Source: an uncultured Erysipelotrichaceae bacterium
GTDB lineage: Bacteria; Bacillota_I; Bacilli_A; Erysipelotrichales; Erysipelotrichaceae
Direction of reading: 5' to 3'
DNA length: 43,155 bases
NCBI GenBank assembly: GCA_944327135.1
Contig: CALVGQ010000014.1
Location: forward strand, 1-43,155
Position numbers and translations under genes: made by a program. Every line of letters starts with the position of its first letter. Within the stretch, counting starts at the first letter, position 1. The notes under the pieces are model-generated. The model was not told the origin of the DNA. It searched no databases and worked only from the letters and a program-made list of their open reading frames with translations. Positions 11,015-41,601 of the stretch are shown here, in pieces.

Positions 11015-11024
11015 TAATTCATAA

Positions 11025-11132
11025 ACTTCAGGGCAGGGTGCGATTCCCGACCGGCGGTAAACTCCGCGAGCCTTCGGGCCGAGCTGGTGAAATTCCAGCA
11101 GCGACAGTAGAGTCTGGATGGAAGAAGATTTC
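11025..11132 (+). promoter_or_regulatory. FMN riboswitch (RFN element)
   Basis: The conserved RFN blocks are present in order: CTTCAGGGCAGGGTG, GATTCCCGACCGGCGGT, GAGCTGGTGAAATTCC, and the closing CAGTAGAGTCTGGATGGAAGAAG. A short hairpin AGGG/CCCT with a T run (about 11146-11169) follows just before the ribosome site and is a candidate expression platform. High FMN should turn off the downstream riboflavin transporter gene. Confidence 0.95.
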
Positions 11133-11191
11133 TTTTTAGTTTCCTGAGGGTTTATTGAGCCCTTTTTTTGTGAGGGCAGGAGGAGAGATGA

Positions 11192-11797
11192 ATGAAAAAC
11201 AAAAATGGAATTACCCCTCGCGCAATGGTGATCGCTGCGCTGATGGCAGCACTGGCTTGTTTACTTATGATGTGGGATTTTCCGCTTCCTTTTGCACCGT
11301 CTTTTTATAAAGTGGATTTGAGCGAAATTCCGGTTTTGATCGGAGGATTCACGCTTGGACCAGGGTATGCTGCGCTGATTGAAGGATTAAAAGTTTTGCT
11401 GCGATTATTATTTAAGCCGACGGAAACAGCTTATGTGGGAGAATTAGCTAATTTTTTGATTGGGATTGCTTTGGTTGTTCCAGCATCTTGGTGGATTTAT
11501 CGGCGGAAAAAGAATTTAATTTCAGCGTGCCTGGGATTAGGTATCGGAACCTTGCTTATGGTCTTGGCTGGTGGATTATTTAATTATTTTGTTCTTTTGC
11601 CAGCTTATTCTGTTCTTTATAAAATGCCGATGGAACAGATTATCAGCATGGGAACCCAACTGGTGCCATGGATTCATGATGCCTTTACGTTTGTTTTGCT
11701 GGCAACGACACCATTCAATCTGTTCAAAGGGTTTTTGATTAGTTTTTTGATGCTTTTATTAGTTCCACGCCTTAATGTGATCCTTCGAAAATTTTAA
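11192..11797 (+). CDS. ribU: Riboflavin ECF transporter substrate-binding subunit RibU
   Basis: A 201-residue S-component with about six membrane helices. It carries the RibU/ECF pattern KVDLSEIPVLIGGFTLGPGYAALI in the first third and GELANFLIGI in the middle. With the shared EcfAA'T module, not in the window, it would import riboflavin across the plasma membrane. The upstream FMN riboswitch supports the substrate directly. The AGGAGGAG ribosome site lies 6 bases before the ATG at 11192; another ATG four bases earlier is out of frame. A terminator follows, so it is monocistronic. Confidence 0.93.
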   Translation: MKNKNGITPRAMVIAALMAALACLLMMWDFPLPFAPSFYKVDLSEIPVLIGGFTLGPGYAALIEGLKVLLRLLFKPTETAYVGELANFLIGIALVVPASWWIYRRKKNLISACLGLGIGTLLMVLAGGLFNYFVLLPAYSVLYKMPMEQIISMGTQLVPWIHDAFTFVLLATTPFNLFKGFLISFLMLLLVPRLNVILRKF

Positions 11798-16162: not shown

Positions 16163-17841
16163 CTCAGCGTCATTATATCCGGCTGCAGGAGGCCAATTGT
16201 CGGAACTGTCTGCGCTGTGTTCGGGTCTGCCCGACCAAGGCCATGACTTATGTGGATCATCAGCCAGTCATTCGTGAGGAGGAATGCATTTTGTGCGGGC
16301 AGTGTTATTTAATTTGTCCGCATAGTGCTAAAAAAATCCAATCTGATCTTTCCATGGTACAGCGCTGGCTTGAGGAAAAGGAAGAAGTCATTGTAAGTGT
16401 TGCTCCAAGTTTTGCTAGTATTTGGCCTCAATATCCGAAATTAAAAAATCAGCTTTTAAAGCTTGGTTTTTCTGATGTTGAAGAAACGGCCCGCGGAGCA
16501 AAAATCGTTTCACAGGCTTATTCTGGTTTGATTCGAGAAAAGAAAATGAAGAATATCATTACTACCTGCTGTCCCTCTGTTGTATCGCTGGTTGAAAAAG
16601 AATTTCCTCAGCTGATCAATCAATTAGCTCCGGTAGTCAGTCCAATGATTGCCCATGGAAAAATGCTTCGCAAAGAGCATCCTAATGCGAGGATTGTGTT
16701 TATCACCCCTTGCATTGCAAAACAAAAAGAAATTCATGATGCCCGTTTTGAAGGAATTATCAATGCGACTTTAAGCATGCCAGAGCTGGCAGATTGGTTA
16801 AAACAGCTTCCGGAGGAAGAAAACAGCAGCGAAAAATGGCAGGATTTTGACGGCCAAATTGCTCGAATTTATCCGACACCGGGAGGAATTTTAAAAACTT
16901 TATCGAGTGAATTATCAGGTTATCATACTGTAAATGTGGAAGGGGTCGATCGAGTTAAACGGACTTTACAGGCAATTATAGACGATCAGCTCGAAGGGTA
17001 TTTTTTCGAGATGAGTGCTTGTCAGGAAAGTTGTTTGGGAGGACCACTGCTGAGTCATTTTAAGCACAACGAATGGCAAGCGCAGCAGGTTATCCGTGAT
17101 CATATTGATCTGCATCAGCCGGTTAAGGAAGGACCGCTTCCGATTACGGTGAAAGCACAATGGAAAGCAGAAAGCCATTGGCAGCCAAAGCATACGGATG
17201 AGGAGATTCGTGATATGCTCTGGATGATGGGAAAAACAAGCAAGGCAAAAGAGCTGAATTGTGGTATGTGCGGTTATGAAACCTGCTGGGATAAAGCTGT
17301 AGCAGTACTGGATGGCAAGGCTGATCCGAAGCTGTGCCTTCCTATGGCATTGGAAAATGCAGAATCGATGTCCAATTTGATCATTGAGAACACTCCGAAT
17401 GGTATTATCGTGCTCAACAAAGACGGAAATATACGTGAAATCAATCCTTCAGCTCAGCACATGCTTCAGCTGGATAGCATCAATCCTAAAGGTATGCCCA
17501 TTGAAAGTGTCCTTCCTTCTGAGGAGCTTCATCGAATTTTAAATACGAATCAGAAGGTCCAGTATTATCGTCAGGAATATCCGCAATATGGAATGATCAT
17601 TGAGCATGCGGTGATTCGGCTTGAGCAGATTTTTATTTTGATTTTGATGGATCTGACGGTAGAAGAAACAAAAGAAAAAGTCATTCGAAACATGCAGCAG
17701 CAGACGGTTGAAGTGGCTCAAAAGGTCATCGACGACCAGATGCGTACTGTTCAGGAAATTGCCAGTTTGCTAGGGGAAACTACTGCCAAGTCCAAAGTAG
17801 CGCTAACCCAGCTGATGAAAGCCATTAGTGATGATGATTGA
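16159..17841 (+). CDS. Sensory-type [FeFe]-hydrogenase (HydS-like) with PAS domain
   Basis: A 560-residue protein. Two N-terminal [4Fe-4S] motifs (C14-C24 region and C43-C53 region) precede an H-cluster domain with motifs TTCCPS (135-140), TPCIAKQKE (183-191) and SACQESCLGG (C288/C292). Next comes a single [4Fe-4S] motif (C368, C371, C376, C393), a PAS domain (about 403-500) and a helical tail. This architecture is that of group C putative sensory hydrogenases, thought to signal rather than to turn over H2 rapidly. The L2 and L3 motifs deviate from catalytic enzymes. GTG start overlaps the preceding stop; its own end overlaps a PP2C phosphatase gene, the likely output partner. Confidence 0.9.
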   Translation: MTQRHYIRLQEANCRNCLRCVRVCPTKAMTYVDHQPVIREEECILCGQCYLICPHSAKKIQSDLSMVQRWLEEKEEVIVSVAPSFASIWPQYPKLKNQLLKLGFSDVEETARGAKIVSQAYSGLIREKKMKNIITTCCPSVVSLVEKEFPQLINQLAPVVSPMIAHGKMLRKEHPNARIVFITPCIAKQKEIHDARFEGIINATLSMPELADWLKQLPEEENSSEKWQDFDGQIARIYPTPGGILKTLSSELSGYHTVNVEGVDRVKRTLQAIIDDQLEGYFFEMSACQESCLGGPLLSHFKHNEWQAQQVIRDHIDLHQPVKEGPLPITVKAQWKAESHWQPKHTDEEIRDMLWMMGKTSKAKELNCGMCGYETCWDKAVAVLDGKADPKLCLPMALENAESMSNLIIENTPNGIIVLNKDGNIREINPSAQHMLQLDSINPKGMPIESVLPSEELHRILNTNQKVQYYRQEYPQYGMIIEHAVIRLEQIFILILMDLTVEETKEKVIRNMQQQTVEVAQKVIDDQMRTVQEIASLLGETTAKSKVALTQLMKAISDDD

Positions 17842-19018
17842 GAAAGTGCATGTTTCCGGCTGTTTTCGATCTTTAAATAAATACGGAGAAGAGCTGTGTG
17901 GAGATAAGGTCGAGATTCGCCAGAATCAGAATTCATTTATCATGGTTTTGGCCGATGGACTTGGAAGCGGTGTAAAAGCCAATATTCTTTCTACTTTGAC
18001 AAGTACGATTATCAGCGAGATGATCAAGGATGGAGCAGGAATGAGTGAAGTTGTAGAAACCATTACTGCTACTTTGCCAGAATGTCAAGAGCGGCATGTG
18101 GCCTATTCGACTTTTACGATTCTGCAGGTGTATTACGACGGCCACGCTAAGCTGGTAGAATTCGATAATCCTCCGGCGATTGTTTTGCGCAATGGCCACG
18201 CTTTACAGCTGGAGCGCTCTGTTTTTACACTAGGCAATCGGACAATCAAAGAATGTAATTTTGAGGTTTTTCCGGAAGATCTGATTGTTTTTTTCTCAGA
18301 TGGAATCATTCATGCCGGAATTGGAACAGTACTGAATCTTGGATGGGATCACCGGGAAGTAACGGACTATTTACAGAAAGTCGTTCGTCCCGGGGACAGT
18401 GAGCGAATTGTCAATCATCTTTTGTTAACCTATGTGAATGATCTTTATGGTCAAAAGCCGGGAGATGATTCGACCGTTGCCGTGGCTCGAGTGCTTCAGG
18501 CCACGGACACTCGTATCATGGTAGGTCCTCCAATCCATCCGGAGGATGATGAACGTCTTGTTCGGAGGTTGCTTCAGGCAAGCGGGAAACGAATTTGTTG
18601 CGGTGGTACGACCAGCAACATCGTTTCACGGATTACCGGGCAGCCCATTGAAATGGATCTGCTGGAGAGTTTGGTGGGCGATGTCCCGCCGATTGCGTAT
18701 ATCAAGGGGATAGACCTAGTGACTGAAGGGGTGCTGACGTTGGGAAAAGCCAACGAGCACTTGAAAGAATGTGTGGCTTCGGAGGAGTACCTGCAGCGGC
18801 TGATCGAAGGACATGAAAAAGACGGAGCTTCTTTGCTTTGTCGAATGCTGCTGAAGGATTCTACTAAAATTACATTCATGGTCGGCTGTTCCGATAACCC
18901 GGCACATAAGGCCATGGCCTATTCGACCATTTCAATCAGTGCCAAGATCAGATTAATTGAAAATATGGCCAATAGTCTGAGAAAACTTGGTAAGATTGTG
19001 GTGATAGAACACTATTAA
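17831..19018 (+). CDS. SpoIIE-type PP2C serine phosphatase with extra C-terminal domain
   Basis: A 395-residue protein. Residues about 10-235 are a PP2C/SpoIIE phosphatase with VLADGLGSG, VFFSDGI and GDDSTVAV supplying the metal-binding Asp residues. It would dephosphorylate a Ser/Thr-phosphorylated partner, such as an anti-anti-sigma type STAS protein. Residues about 236-395 are a separate region with RICCGGTTSNIVSR and a Cys-containing middle (HLKECVAS, LLCRML), which I cannot assign. GTG 17828 and ATGs 17831 and 17834 are all possible starts with weak ribosome sites; all overlap the hydrogenase gene upstream. Probably the output enzyme of the PAS-hydrogenase sensor. Confidence 0.88.
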   Translation: MMIEKVHVSGCFRSLNKYGEELCGDKVEIRQNQNSFIMVLADGLGSGVKANILSTLTSTIISEMIKDGAGMSEVVETITATLPECQERHVAYSTFTILQVYYDGHAKLVEFDNPPAIVLRNGHALQLERSVFTLGNRTIKECNFEVFPEDLIVFFSDGIIHAGIGTVLNLGWDHREVTDYLQKVVRPGDSERIVNHLLLTYVNDLYGQKPGDDSTVAVARVLQATDTRIMVGPPIHPEDDERLVRRLLQASGKRICCGGTTSNIVSRITGQPIEMDLLESLVGDVPPIAYIKGIDLVTEGVLTLGKANEHLKECVASEEYLQRLIEGHEKDGASLLCRMLLKDSTKITFMVGCSDNPAHKAMAYSTISISAKIRLIENMANSLRKLGKIVVIEHY

Positions 19019-19033
19019 AAGGAGGAGAAGGTA

Positions 19034-19537
19034 GTGGAAAAACTGAATTCGCCGACTTTGGCGAAAATTGAAGAAATCGTGGATCGCCATCGCAAAAAGA
19101 GGGGACCGGTCAAACTGATGCTGCACGATGTTCAGCATGAGTTGGGGTATATCCCGTTTGAAGCGATGGAAATGATTTCTGAAGCAACTGGCATTTCAGT
19201 AGCAGAAGTCTATGGTGTCGTGACATTTTATACTCAGTTTACGACCGAACCTAAAGGAAAGCATGTGATTAATGTTTGCATGGGAACTGCCTGTTATGTT
19301 AAAGGAGCGCAAAGTCTGCTAAATATGATTTCAGAAATGACACACTGCACTGTCAATGGAACTAGTCCGGATGGGTTGTTTTCTCTGGATGCAACACGAT
19401 GCTTAGGCGCTTGTGGGCTGGCACCAGCAGTCGTCATTGATGGAAAGGTGTATGGAACTGCGAACGAAAGTAGTGAAGTTGAAGACCAGATCAAGGCATT
19501 GATGCGTGCTGAGGTCACAACGGAAATTCGACGATGA
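19034..19537 (+). CDS. NAD-dependent hydrogenase small subunit, NuoE/HydC-like
   Basis: A 167-residue [2Fe-2S] protein like NuoE. It has the helical N-domain LMLHDVQHELGYIP, then GVVTFYTQF, and the thioredoxin-like cluster domain with C-x4-C (VCMGTACYVKG) and C-x3-C (RCLGACGLAP). It is one of three subunits of a trimeric NAD-linked [FeFe]-hydrogenase with the NuoF-like and HydA proteins encoded 4 kb downstream. GTG start at 19034 has a strong AAAGGAGGAG site six bases upstream. Its end overlaps the DRTGG gene. Confidence 0.92.
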   Translation: MEKLNSPTLAKIEEIVDRHRKKRGPVKLMLHDVQHELGYIPFEAMEMISEATGISVAEVYGVVTFYTQFTTEPKGKHVINVCMGTACYVKGAQSLLNMISEMTHCTVNGTSPDGLFSLDATRCLGACGLAPAVVIDGKVYGTANESSEVEDQIKALMRAEVTTEIRR

Positions 19538-34029: not shown

Positions 34030-34085
34030 GCAAATGGTGCAAAGCCAATCCAAAATTATGCTATGATTATTTTGAGGTGATTTCA

Positions 34086-37000
34086 ATGAGTGTGCATCTC
34101 CATACGCGAAGCTGCTATAGTCTGTTGAATAGTACCTTAAAAATTGAGCAGATTGTAAAAAATGCAAAAAAATTAGGCTTTTCGTCTGTATCATGTACGG
34201 ATTGGCAAGTCATGCATGGGGCAATGGAGTTTTTTCATTGCTGTCAAAAAGAGCAAATTAAACCGATTTTTGGGTTGGAACTGGCGATGGATTATCATGG
34301 AAGGCCGGCAACCATGTTGGTTTTGGCTAAAAATGACGAAGGTTATAAAGCCTTGATGCAAGCTAGCAGCTGGCTTTGCTCCTTTCAGAAGATGCTGAGT
34401 TTGGAGCAGGTTTTATCCATGAAAAAAGATTGGGTTGTGGTGGTTTATACAGAAGGCGGAATTTTTGAGGAAGCTTGTATTCATGAAAATCGTTCAGAAA
34501 TTTTAGCTCTGATGGAAAGTCTGAAAACGATTCTGGGAGAATTTGATTTGGCACTATCTTATCAGGAAAGTTCATTCTGGCGAATTCGCAATGCTTTAAT
34601 TAAAGAATGCGCTCGGGAAATCGGACTTAAAACAGTAGCAGTAAACAAAATATACTATTTGAACAAGGACGATGTAGAGGCCTATCGCGCTCTTTGTGGG
34701 ATCCGACTACAGAAAACGTTTTTAGATAAATCTTTGGTTACTGTTACTGGTCGTTATATGCTTAGTTTGCAAGAAATGGAAGCACTTTACGACGCTGAGG
34801 ATTTAATGGAAACGGAACGGATCGCAGCACTTTGTGAAGTCAAGATGCAGTTCATGAAAACGACGCTGCCGGTTTTTCAGTGTCCTTCGCCTTTGGACTC
34901 AGGAAAATACTTAACACAGCTTTGCCTGGCAGGATTAAAAAAACGATTTGGTTCCCGTGCTGTTCCAAAAGCGTATATTCAACGCTTGAAGTATGAATTG
35001 AATGTGATTCTTTCCATGCATTTCGAAGATTATTTTTTGATTGTCTGGGATTTCATCCGATTTGCACGTTCTGAAAAAATTTTGGTGGGGCCAGGACGCG
35101 GAAGTGCGGCGGGATCGCTTGTTTCTTGGTGCCTTGGAATTACCCATATTGATCCATTGGAGTATGGGCTTCTATTTGAGCGGTTTTTAAATCCAGAACG
35201 GGTTTCTATGCCGGATATTGATGTGGACTTTCCAGATAACCGGCGTGATGAAGTGATTGCCTATGTAAAAAAGAAATATGGCTCGGAACATATTGCTCAC
35301 ATTGCAACTTTTGGAACTCTGGCTGCAAAACAGGTTCTGCGGGATGTTGGAAGGGTATTGGATATTCCATTAAGAAAAGTAGATCAGCTTTGCAAGGCAG
35401 TACCGAATCAGCCGAAGATCACGCTGCAGCAGGCTTTGAAAAATAATCGATTTTATCAGCTTCTTCATTCTGATCCTCAATATTTGAATTTATTTGAATT
35501 AGCTGAAAAGATTGAAGGGCTTCCACGTCATGTCAGCATGCATGCTGCTGGAATCGTGATGAGTCGGCTTCCGCTAGAGGCAGTAGTTCCAACCATTGCA
35601 CTTGACTCTTCAACCTTGGCAACCCAATATACAATGGAATATATGGAAGAGCTAGGCCTGATCAAAATGGATTTTCTTGGTCTGCGTAATCTTGCGATCA
35701 TTGATGAAATTGTTCAGGAAATTAAAAAAAGACAGCCTAATTTTGATATCATGCATCTTCCACTGGATGATTTTAAGACTTTTCAATGTCTTCAAAATGT
35801 AGATACTGTGGGAATTTTCCAATTGGAATCCGATGGCATGCGAAATCTGATCCGAAAAATAAAGCCGCGGTGTTTCGATGATATCGTCGCGACGATTGCA
35901 CTTTTTCGACCTGGTCCGATGGAAAATATTCCGCTTTATTTACAAAATCGGGAGCATCCGGATCAGATTCAGTATCTTCATCCTGTATTGGAGCCAATTC
36001 TGAAATCAACCTATGGAGTGATGATCTATCAGTAGCAGATCACGCAGATTGCAGAAGTGATGGCTGGATTTTCGCTTTCTAAAGCCGATATCCTACGAAA
36101 AGCAATGAGCAAAAAAAAGGAATCTGAGCTACGTAGCTTAGAAGAAGAGTTTATTGCGGGCTGTCAGACAAATGGACACAGCCGTGAACTTGGTAAACAA
36201 CTATATGATTTGATTATGAAATTCGCAAATTATGGCTTTAATAAAAGTCATTCTGTGGCTTATGGGCTTTTGGCGTATCAATTGACTTATTTAAAAGCGA
36301 ATGCCCCGTTGGAATTTTTTCAGGCCTTATTAACCAGCGTAATCGGAGCTGAAGGAAAAACAGCGGAATATATTGACGAATGTCGGCGACGAAATGTTGT
36401 GATCTTACCGCCTTCTATCAATTTTAGTGGGAATCGTTATCAGATCGAAGAAAAAGGTCTACGTTTTCCGCTTAGGGCAATTAAAGGAATTGGAGAAAGT
36501 GTCTGCAATGAATTGATTGCCGAACGATCACAAAAGCCTTTTGTAGATTATTATGATTTTGTGGCCCGGATCATGACTCGCAAAGTCAGCCGGAAAGTGA
36601 TTGAAAGCCTGATTGATGCCGGAGCACTGGATGAATTTCAAGGAAATCGTAAAAGTAAGCTAGCCTCTTTGGATGAAGCCATCAGTTATGCTGATCTGGT
36701 TCGAATCGAAACAGATGGTCAGATCAAAATTGATTTGGGGTTAGTTAGCCGCCCGGTCATGATGAATATTCACGAGGATTTGCTGGAGCGCTCTGCTCGA
36801 GAAAAAGAAGCTCTGGGATTTTATCTTTCTTCCCATCCGATTTTAACAATAAAGAAAACCAAACAGATCCAAGTAGAAAATCTGGCCGTTTTAAAACGGC
36901 GGCAGGGGATGATCCAAGGTTTTGCCGTAGTTTCAAAGGTTCGTCAGCATCGAACTAAACGCGGAGAAATGATGGCTTTTGTTAACGTTGCTGATGAAAG

Positions 37001-37145
37001 TACAGACTTTGATTTGGTTGTGATGCCAAACAGCTTTCTTCGTTATGCTTCTGTGCTGGAAAAAGGCAACTATCTGCTTTTTGAAGGGAAAAAAGACAAA
37101 GAGGATTCCTGTATCCTGCGAAGTTGTGTTAAAATTGAACTGTAA
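34086..37145 (+). pseudogene. dnaE: DNA polymerase III alpha subunit DnaE, frame interrupted by one in-frame TAG
   Basis: A DnaE polymerase gene, 1019 codons if one stop is ignored. The N-terminal PHP domain (VHLHTRSCYS) is followed by the palm with GPGRGSAAGS, the catalytic pair PDIDVDFPD, and IKMDFLGL. TAG at 36033-36035 follows YGVMIYQ and is followed in the same frame by QITQIAEVMAGFSLSKAD. In relatives the TAG position is a conserved Glu (YQEQ), so one G-to-T change from GAG explains it. Downstream, the frame keeps the HhH region and an OB domain to 37145. ATG 34086 is chosen because GAGGTG lies six bases upstream. It may be a sequencing error, a true mutation or readthrough; DnaE is normally essential beside PolC. 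Confidence 0.9.
36033..36035 (+). other. In-frame amber codon within dnaE
   Basis: CAG-TAG-CAG-ATC. No convincing ribosome site precedes the GTG/ATG at 36057-36062, so restart is unlikely. A TAG followed by CAG partly resembles the eukaryotic-virus readthrough context UAG-CAR-YYA, but the next triplet (ATC) does not fit. No frameshift is needed on either side. Confidence 0.95.
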
Positions 37146-40575: not shown

Positions 40576-40672
40576 GTTGTCAGCCCCTTGGTTGGGTCTG
40601 CAACCGCTCAGAACAGGATCCAAGTGCGAAAGCCTCCTGGGATGGCGAGTCTCATTTAGAAAACTAAGGAGG
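40576..40672 (+). promoter_or_regulatory. Ribosomal protein L21 leader
   Basis: A structured untranslated leader with the Firmicutes L21-leader landmarks: GCCCCTTGGTTGGGTCTGCAACC near the start and CGAAAGCCTCCTGGGATGGCGAGTC near the end, just before the rplU ribosome site. It is expected to give autogenous control by a ribosomal protein of the operon. The boundaries are estimated. Confidence 0.8.
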
Positions 40673-40680
40673 TGCAAGAC

Positions 40681-40992
40681 ATGTACGCAATCGTAGAAAC
40701 AGGCGGAAAACAGCTTCGAGTTGAAGAAGGACAATCGATTTTTGTAGAAAAACTGAATGCGGAGGAAGGCTCTGAGATCGTTTTGGACAAGGTCGTTGCT
40801 TTTTCTGACAAGACAATGAAGTTAGGAGCTCCGTATGTAAAAGGAGCTAAAGTTACTTGCAAGGTTGAAAAACAAGGTAAAGAAAAGAAAATCATTATCT
40901 TCAAGTACAAAGCCAAAAAAGGTTCCACGCATCGCAAGCAGGGACATCGTCAGCCGTATACAAAGCTGACTGTGACCAAAATTGAAGCTTAA
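40681..40992 (+). CDS. rplU: 50S ribosomal protein L21 (bL21)
   Basis: A 103-residue L21: [18 protein letters not shown] at the N-terminus, [21 protein letters not shown] in the middle and [13 protein letters not shown] at the end. It is a 50S subunit protein bound to 23S rRNA. The ATG 40681 follows AGGAGGTG; an upstream in-frame ATG-like start at 40672 overlaps that site. Confidence 0.97.
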
Positions 40993-40995
40993 TTC

Positions 40996-41313
40996 ATGAT
41001 TCAGGTGAATGTTGACTTTCATGGAAAATTTATCAAGAAATTAGAAGTGAAAGGACATGCCGGTTATGCTGAGGCGGGAGGCGATCTCGTCTGTGCAGGA
41101 GCCAGCTGTATTATGTATGGGACATACAATGCACTGGTGGAACTCGTGAATGAGGGGTTTGATTATCGGCTGGATGAAACGGGTATTTTTGTGATTAGGA
41201 CAGCCAATGAGGATGAAATCACGCAAACAATTTTAAAAACCGCTTTGGTTCAGCTAGAAACGATGCATACCAGTTATGCAAACTATATCAGAATAAAGAA
41301 GACGGAGGTGTAA
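40996..41313 (+). CDS. prp: Ribosomal-processing cysteine protease Prp
   Basis: A 105-residue Prp (YsxB-like) protein. The active-site His lies in VKGHAGYAEAGGDLVCAG and the Cys in the same segment, as in the family. Prp removes the N-terminal extension of bL27, encoded immediately downstream with the matching extension. The gene lies between rplU and rpmA, three bases from each, which is the standard Firmicutes order. The start is set by position rather than a strong ribosome site. Confidence 0.95.
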   Translation: MIQVNVDFHGKFIKKLEVKGHAGYAEAGGDLVCAGASCIMYGTYNALVELVNEGFDYRLDETGIFVIRTANEDEITQTILKTALVQLETMHTSYANYIRIKKTEV

Positions 41314-41316
41314 ACC

Positions 41317-41601
41317 ATGAAGTTAGTGTTAAATATCCAGCTTTTTGCTTCTAAAAAAGGAGTCGGTTCGACTAAAAACGGACGGGATTCTCATTCTAAA
41401 CGGTTAGGGGCTAAAAAAGCAGACGGACAGTTCGCTTCTGCCGGTTCTATTCTTTATCGTCAGCGCGGTACTAAGATTCATCCAGGTACCAATGTTGGAC
41501 GCGGCGGCGATGATACATTGTTCGCAATGGTCGATGGAACGGTAAAATTTGAACGAATGGGAAAAGACAAGAAAAAAGTTTCTGTTTATCCAGCTGCCTA
41601 A
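41317..41601 (+). CDS. rpmA: 50S ribosomal protein L27 (bL27), precursor with cleavable N-terminal extension
   Basis: A 94-residue protein. [11 protein letters not shown] is the Firmicutes N-terminal extension, cut by Prp before [14 protein letters not shown]. The mature part has the usual [12 protein letters not shown] and [22 protein letters not shown]. It lies at the peptidyl transferase centre of the ribosome. The GGAGGTG site precedes the ATG. A strong terminator follows. Confidence 0.97.

Follow-up and report, generated by a model that had tools for sequence, protein, structure and literature searches.

Bacillus subtilis carries DnaE as a second polymerase beside PolC, and the polymerase activity of its DnaE is essential in vivo (PMC5627055). 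A survey of PolIII-alpha sequences places the Erysipelotrichi under the same pairing, PolC plus DnaE3, and records a small set of fragmented genes, which are usually broken by frameshifts and some of which may be sequencing or assembly errors (PMC3919608). In-frame stops in bacterial genes have been catalogued in a study that counted only stops common to at least two genomes, to exclude sequencing errors, and some of these may be read through (PMC7918605). A literature search on DnaE, PolC and Erysipelotrichi jointly returned nothing useful.

The window analysed here is a stretch of 43,155 nucleotides (contig C14) from an uncultured Erysipelotrichaceae bacterium, the assembly of which is a draft of 2.05 Mb in 117 contigs, 96.4% complete. 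It contains a dnaE gene that is interrupted by a single in-frame stop codon, and the features concerned are as follows.

34086–37145, + strand: dnaE (DNA polymerase III alpha subunit, the second polymerase beside PolC), 1,019 codons including the TAG, then TAA.
36033–36035, + strand: in-frame TAG, codon 650, at the Glu of the motif YQEQ (from the frame translation and the alignment of relatives).
34077–36035, + strand: upstream open reading frame (ORF), 652 amino acids, with the PHP and palm domains and most of the finger domain (from the ORF list and Pfam).
36057–37145, + strand: downstream ORF, 362 amino acids from a GTG (also an ATG at 36060), with the end of the finger domain, HHH_6 and an OB-like region.

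The dnaE frame is open from the ATG at 34086 (or a GTG at 34077) to the TAA at 37143–37145 except for the TAG, and its translation continues past the TAG with no frameshift or further stop. It encodes 1,019 residues counting the TAG, compared with open frames of about 1,010–1,045 amino acids in relatives, which bears out the description in an earlier note of a single TAG, no frameshift and a normal total length. The catalytic Asp residues (PDIDVDF, and the third Asp in KMDFLGL) all lie upstream of the TAG. The stop splits the Pfam domain DNA_pol3_finger, such that the upstream ORF matches profile positions 1–118 and the downstream ORF positions 128–166; when the gene is read through, the match is a single piece covering positions 1–166. 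With the TAG translated as X, the domain order is PHP, DNA_pol3_alpha, finger, HHH_6 and a weak OB-fold match, and the read-through protein matches both NCBIfam PRK05673 (DNA polymerase III alpha; 1,056.5 bits, cutoff 1,002) and TIGR00594. The two ORFs are one gene and not a chance juxtaposition. A full-length uninterrupted reading frame, as expected of DnaE, is what the gene lacks, owing to the TAG at codon 650.

The position of the TAG is Glu in all relatives with an alignment that spans the site (109/109), within the motif YQEQ, and the same column is 100% Glu in a second alignment of 105 distinct near-full-length sequences. The closest relative (L005, 61% identity) reads CTATCAGGAGCAGATC at this site, with the codons TAT CAG GAG CAG ATC, compared with TAT CAG TAG CAG ATC in the window. 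Because the Glu is invariant and the closest relative has GAG, one G-to-T change (GAG to TAG) suffices to produce the stop, as had been proposed in the earlier note from the DNA letters and the family motif. The nearest dnaE relatives are at most 61% identical (among named genomes, the best come from Erysipelotrichaceae or Erysipelotrichales, Amedibacillus dolichus being one example); none of the relatives compared has a stop in DnaE, and the TAG is private to one assembly. The exact pattern, with any base allowed at the changed position, has no match in viral contigs.

Our search of the assembly for the polymerase family found no second dnaE in this draft, which has gaps and is not closed. 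The only other family-C polymerase found is PolC, an intact open frame of 1,462 codons on contig C12; the complete second dnaE that the earlier note had raised as a challenge to its reading is therefore not among the genes recovered. DnaE is matched in all but two of the 60 relatives searched, one of the two (G014) being a 260-contig draft with a match for PolC only. The other, G016, belongs to the same family and has a listed completeness of 98% and 10 contigs, yet it has no match for PolC, DnaE or prfA; this gap is probably a problem with the record and not a real absence.

The two halves of the gene have similar identities to relatives. In a relative-rate count against the nearest relative, dnaE has 18 private changes upstream of the TAG versus 20 in the relative, and 9 versus 5 downstream. 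At columns that are at least 90% conserved, deviations occur at 3/46 positions downstream and 3/124 upstream, a slight downstream excess that involves few sites. Among the downstream residues, Thr653 (36042–36044, three codons past the TAG) is Met in 91% of relatives, and Thr734 (36285–36287) is Ala in 99%; together, they may hint faintly at a genuine change in this region. Overall, these comparisons give no clear sign of relaxed constraint downstream of the TAG, and we rejected decay of the downstream half because the identities are similar and there is no clear rise in the relative-rate count. Nor did we see clear decay in the rest of this copy, which the earlier note had named as a further sign that would count against its reading. 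The lack of decay does not separate a recent mutation from an error, because a recent loss leaves few marks. The MutS gene and the MutL-type gene that follows it (L197) appear intact in the sampled DNA, and loss of mismatch repair is therefore not indicated.

We also searched a sample of about 628 kb from the genome, window included, for pairs of coding-like stretches that share one frame and are separated by a single stop. Pairs were assessed with a coding score, a filter of limited sensitivity, and with Pfam after reading the stop as X, which leaves genes without a Pfam match outside what can be judged. Besides dnaE, 38 such pairs were found; Pfam was applied to 33 of them, the other five having low scores. 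The other pairs that Pfam could judge are neighbouring genes or have no domain across the stop, and for a few Pfam gives no match. The dnaE TAG is the only domain-spanning in-frame stop found in the sample.

Several other loci were noted. On contig C8, L170:319–1430 (− strand) has coding-like frames that overlap one another, contain TGA and TAG stops and lack a Pfam match; this may be a decayed gene or an unknown one. In the window, positions 17828–19537 (+ strand) hold a gene for a SpoIIE-type phosphatase followed in the same frame by a gene for a thioredoxin-like [2Fe-2S] ferredoxin, two genes and not an interrupted one. A ribosomal protein L21 leader, followed by the genes for L21 and the cysteine protease Prp in one frame, occupies 40592–41601 (+ strand), and the 94-amino-acid ORF after the Prp gene (41317–41601) is likely to encode L27, judging by its position. 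An FMN riboswitch (11020–11133, + strand; 105.9 bits, gathering threshold 66.2) lies ahead of the ORF at 11192–11797.

We consider it probable, with considerable room for doubt, that the TAG is an error in the consensus sequence, whether from base-calling, assembly or strain mixture; the division between error and mutation rests on prior expectation. The change from GAG to TAG would then be a private single-base difference in the consensus of a 117-contig draft, and DnaE would be made in its ordinary, full-length form by the living population and would act as in B. subtilis, extending primers for PolC. We infer that the base is wrong rather than truly mutated from the essential role of DnaE activity in B. 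subtilis, which has the same pairing of DnaE and PolC. Supporting an error, the difference is confined to a single base of a single gene at an invariant site, and no second dnaE, decoding machinery or clear decay was found. Counting against it, the rest of the sampled assembly looks clean at the base level, such that a random error in an essential gene would be a rare event, and the downstream part has the two unusual residues Thr653 and Thr734. We class the TAG as no real biological feature, and a real private nonsense allele is possible. Among the options that the earlier note had listed, error is the best explanation, whereas amber suppression and cooperating fragments gained no positive support.

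The main rival to a consensus error is a recent private amber allele, either a real mutation of the strain that was sequenced or one variant within a mixed population, which we regard as rather unlikely. A single-base change without further clear decay fits a recent mutation, the residues downstream of the TAG are mildly odd, and in-frame stops in otherwise functional bacterial genes have been reported to be widespread (PMC7918605). Such an allele might survive if DnaE were less essential here, if basal misreading of UAG gave enough DnaE or if the variant were short-lived. Against it stand the essential polymerase activity of B. subtilis DnaE (PMC5627055) and the near-universal presence of DnaE in relatives (2/60 without a match, one an unusable record and the other a 260-contig draft).

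Maintained readthrough or suppression of UAG, which would yield a low level of full-length DnaE through, for example, a near-cognate tRNA-Gln (CUG) or a suppressor tRNA that falls in an assembly gap, appears improbable. The dnaE frame is intact on both sides of the TAG, the part after it is still conserved and a tRNA-Gln with the anticodon CUG is present. However, all 43 tRNAs found in the assembly, which has gaps, have ordinary sense anticodons and none has CUA, so the search for an amber suppressor tRNA advised in the earlier note yielded none. The release factor 1 (RF1) gene prfA is present at 509 bits, above its cutoff (a profile match that predicts the function), and PylS reaches 24.9 bits against a cutoff of 178, a similarly weak match being seen in most control genomes. 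The stop is common to no relative compared, and in the sample of about 628 kb we found no further TAG with a domain extending across it. In the stricter form of this explanation, a real amber codon would be kept in an essential polymerase gene and full-length DnaE would be made solely by leaky readthrough, so that the amount of this primer-extending polymerase would depend on termination efficiency; we think this very improbable.

Slighter still is the chance of a two-fragment DnaE, in which pieces of 652 and about 361 amino acids, the second restarted at GTG 36057 or ATG 36060, would assemble into an enzyme. The two candidate starts lie 21 and 24 bases past the end of the TAG, near enough for reinitiation, but they have no Shine–Dalgarno-like pairing (−2.5 and −2.9 kcal/mol, respectively, versus a mean of −3.5 over dnaE positions and −11.9 at the gene's own start, ATG 34086), and the two-fragment enzyme is therefore poorly supported. 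The weak pairing is not decisive against reinitiation, because some genuine starts in the window score equally weakly. The split would also fall inside the finger domain and lose the seven or eight residues that separate the TAG from the restart, and no relative is split at this site. Between the two parts of dnaE we found no intein halves and no extra sequence.

Genome-wide reassignment of TAG to an amino acid, which has the in-frame TAG of dnaE as its one point in favour, is contradicted by the results and hardly credible: RF1 is present, no CUA tRNA was found, TAG closes 59/415 long coding frames in the sampled DNA (about 14%, dnaE's TAG included) as well as eight further likely genes of the window, and no other domain-spanning TAG was found in the sample. 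Recoding is unsupported because dnaE is the only domain-spanning case in about 628 kb, and the specific routes of pyrrolysine (PylS below its cutoff), a CUA tRNA (none among 43) and loss of RF1 (prfA present) were each rejected. The earlier statements that TAG ends many neighbouring genes and that genome-wide recoding is unlikely agree with these counts.

If the TAG is an error, the consequence is a caution for annotation only, as dnaE would be misannotated as a pseudogene or as two separate genes. A real and stable stop would challenge the need for an intact DnaE beside PolC, or else show that a replicative polymerase gene is read through. The cyanobacterial split DnaE (a split intein) resembles this locus in having two reading frames and a break in the later polymerase core, whereas here there are no intein halves and both parts are contiguous in one frame. 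The cyanobacterial intein site lies before the FNKSHS motif, about 70 residues beyond the TAG site. The bacterial in-frame stops for which readthrough has been suggested (PMC7918605) likewise involve a frame that is conserved apart from a single stop, but the dnaE TAG is private to one assembly and falls outside the set of stops found in at least two genomes. The fragmented PolIII-alpha sequences (PMC3919608) are similar in that a polymerase gene is interrupted in one assembly and intact in relatives, although the usual cause there is a frameshift and here it is a substitution to a stop codon. In the group of B. subtilis DnaE and DnaE3 (PMC3919608), we find the same order of PHP, palm, finger, HhH and OB-like regions and the same co-occurrence with one PolC, and the gene described here differs by one in-frame TAG at an invariant Glu.
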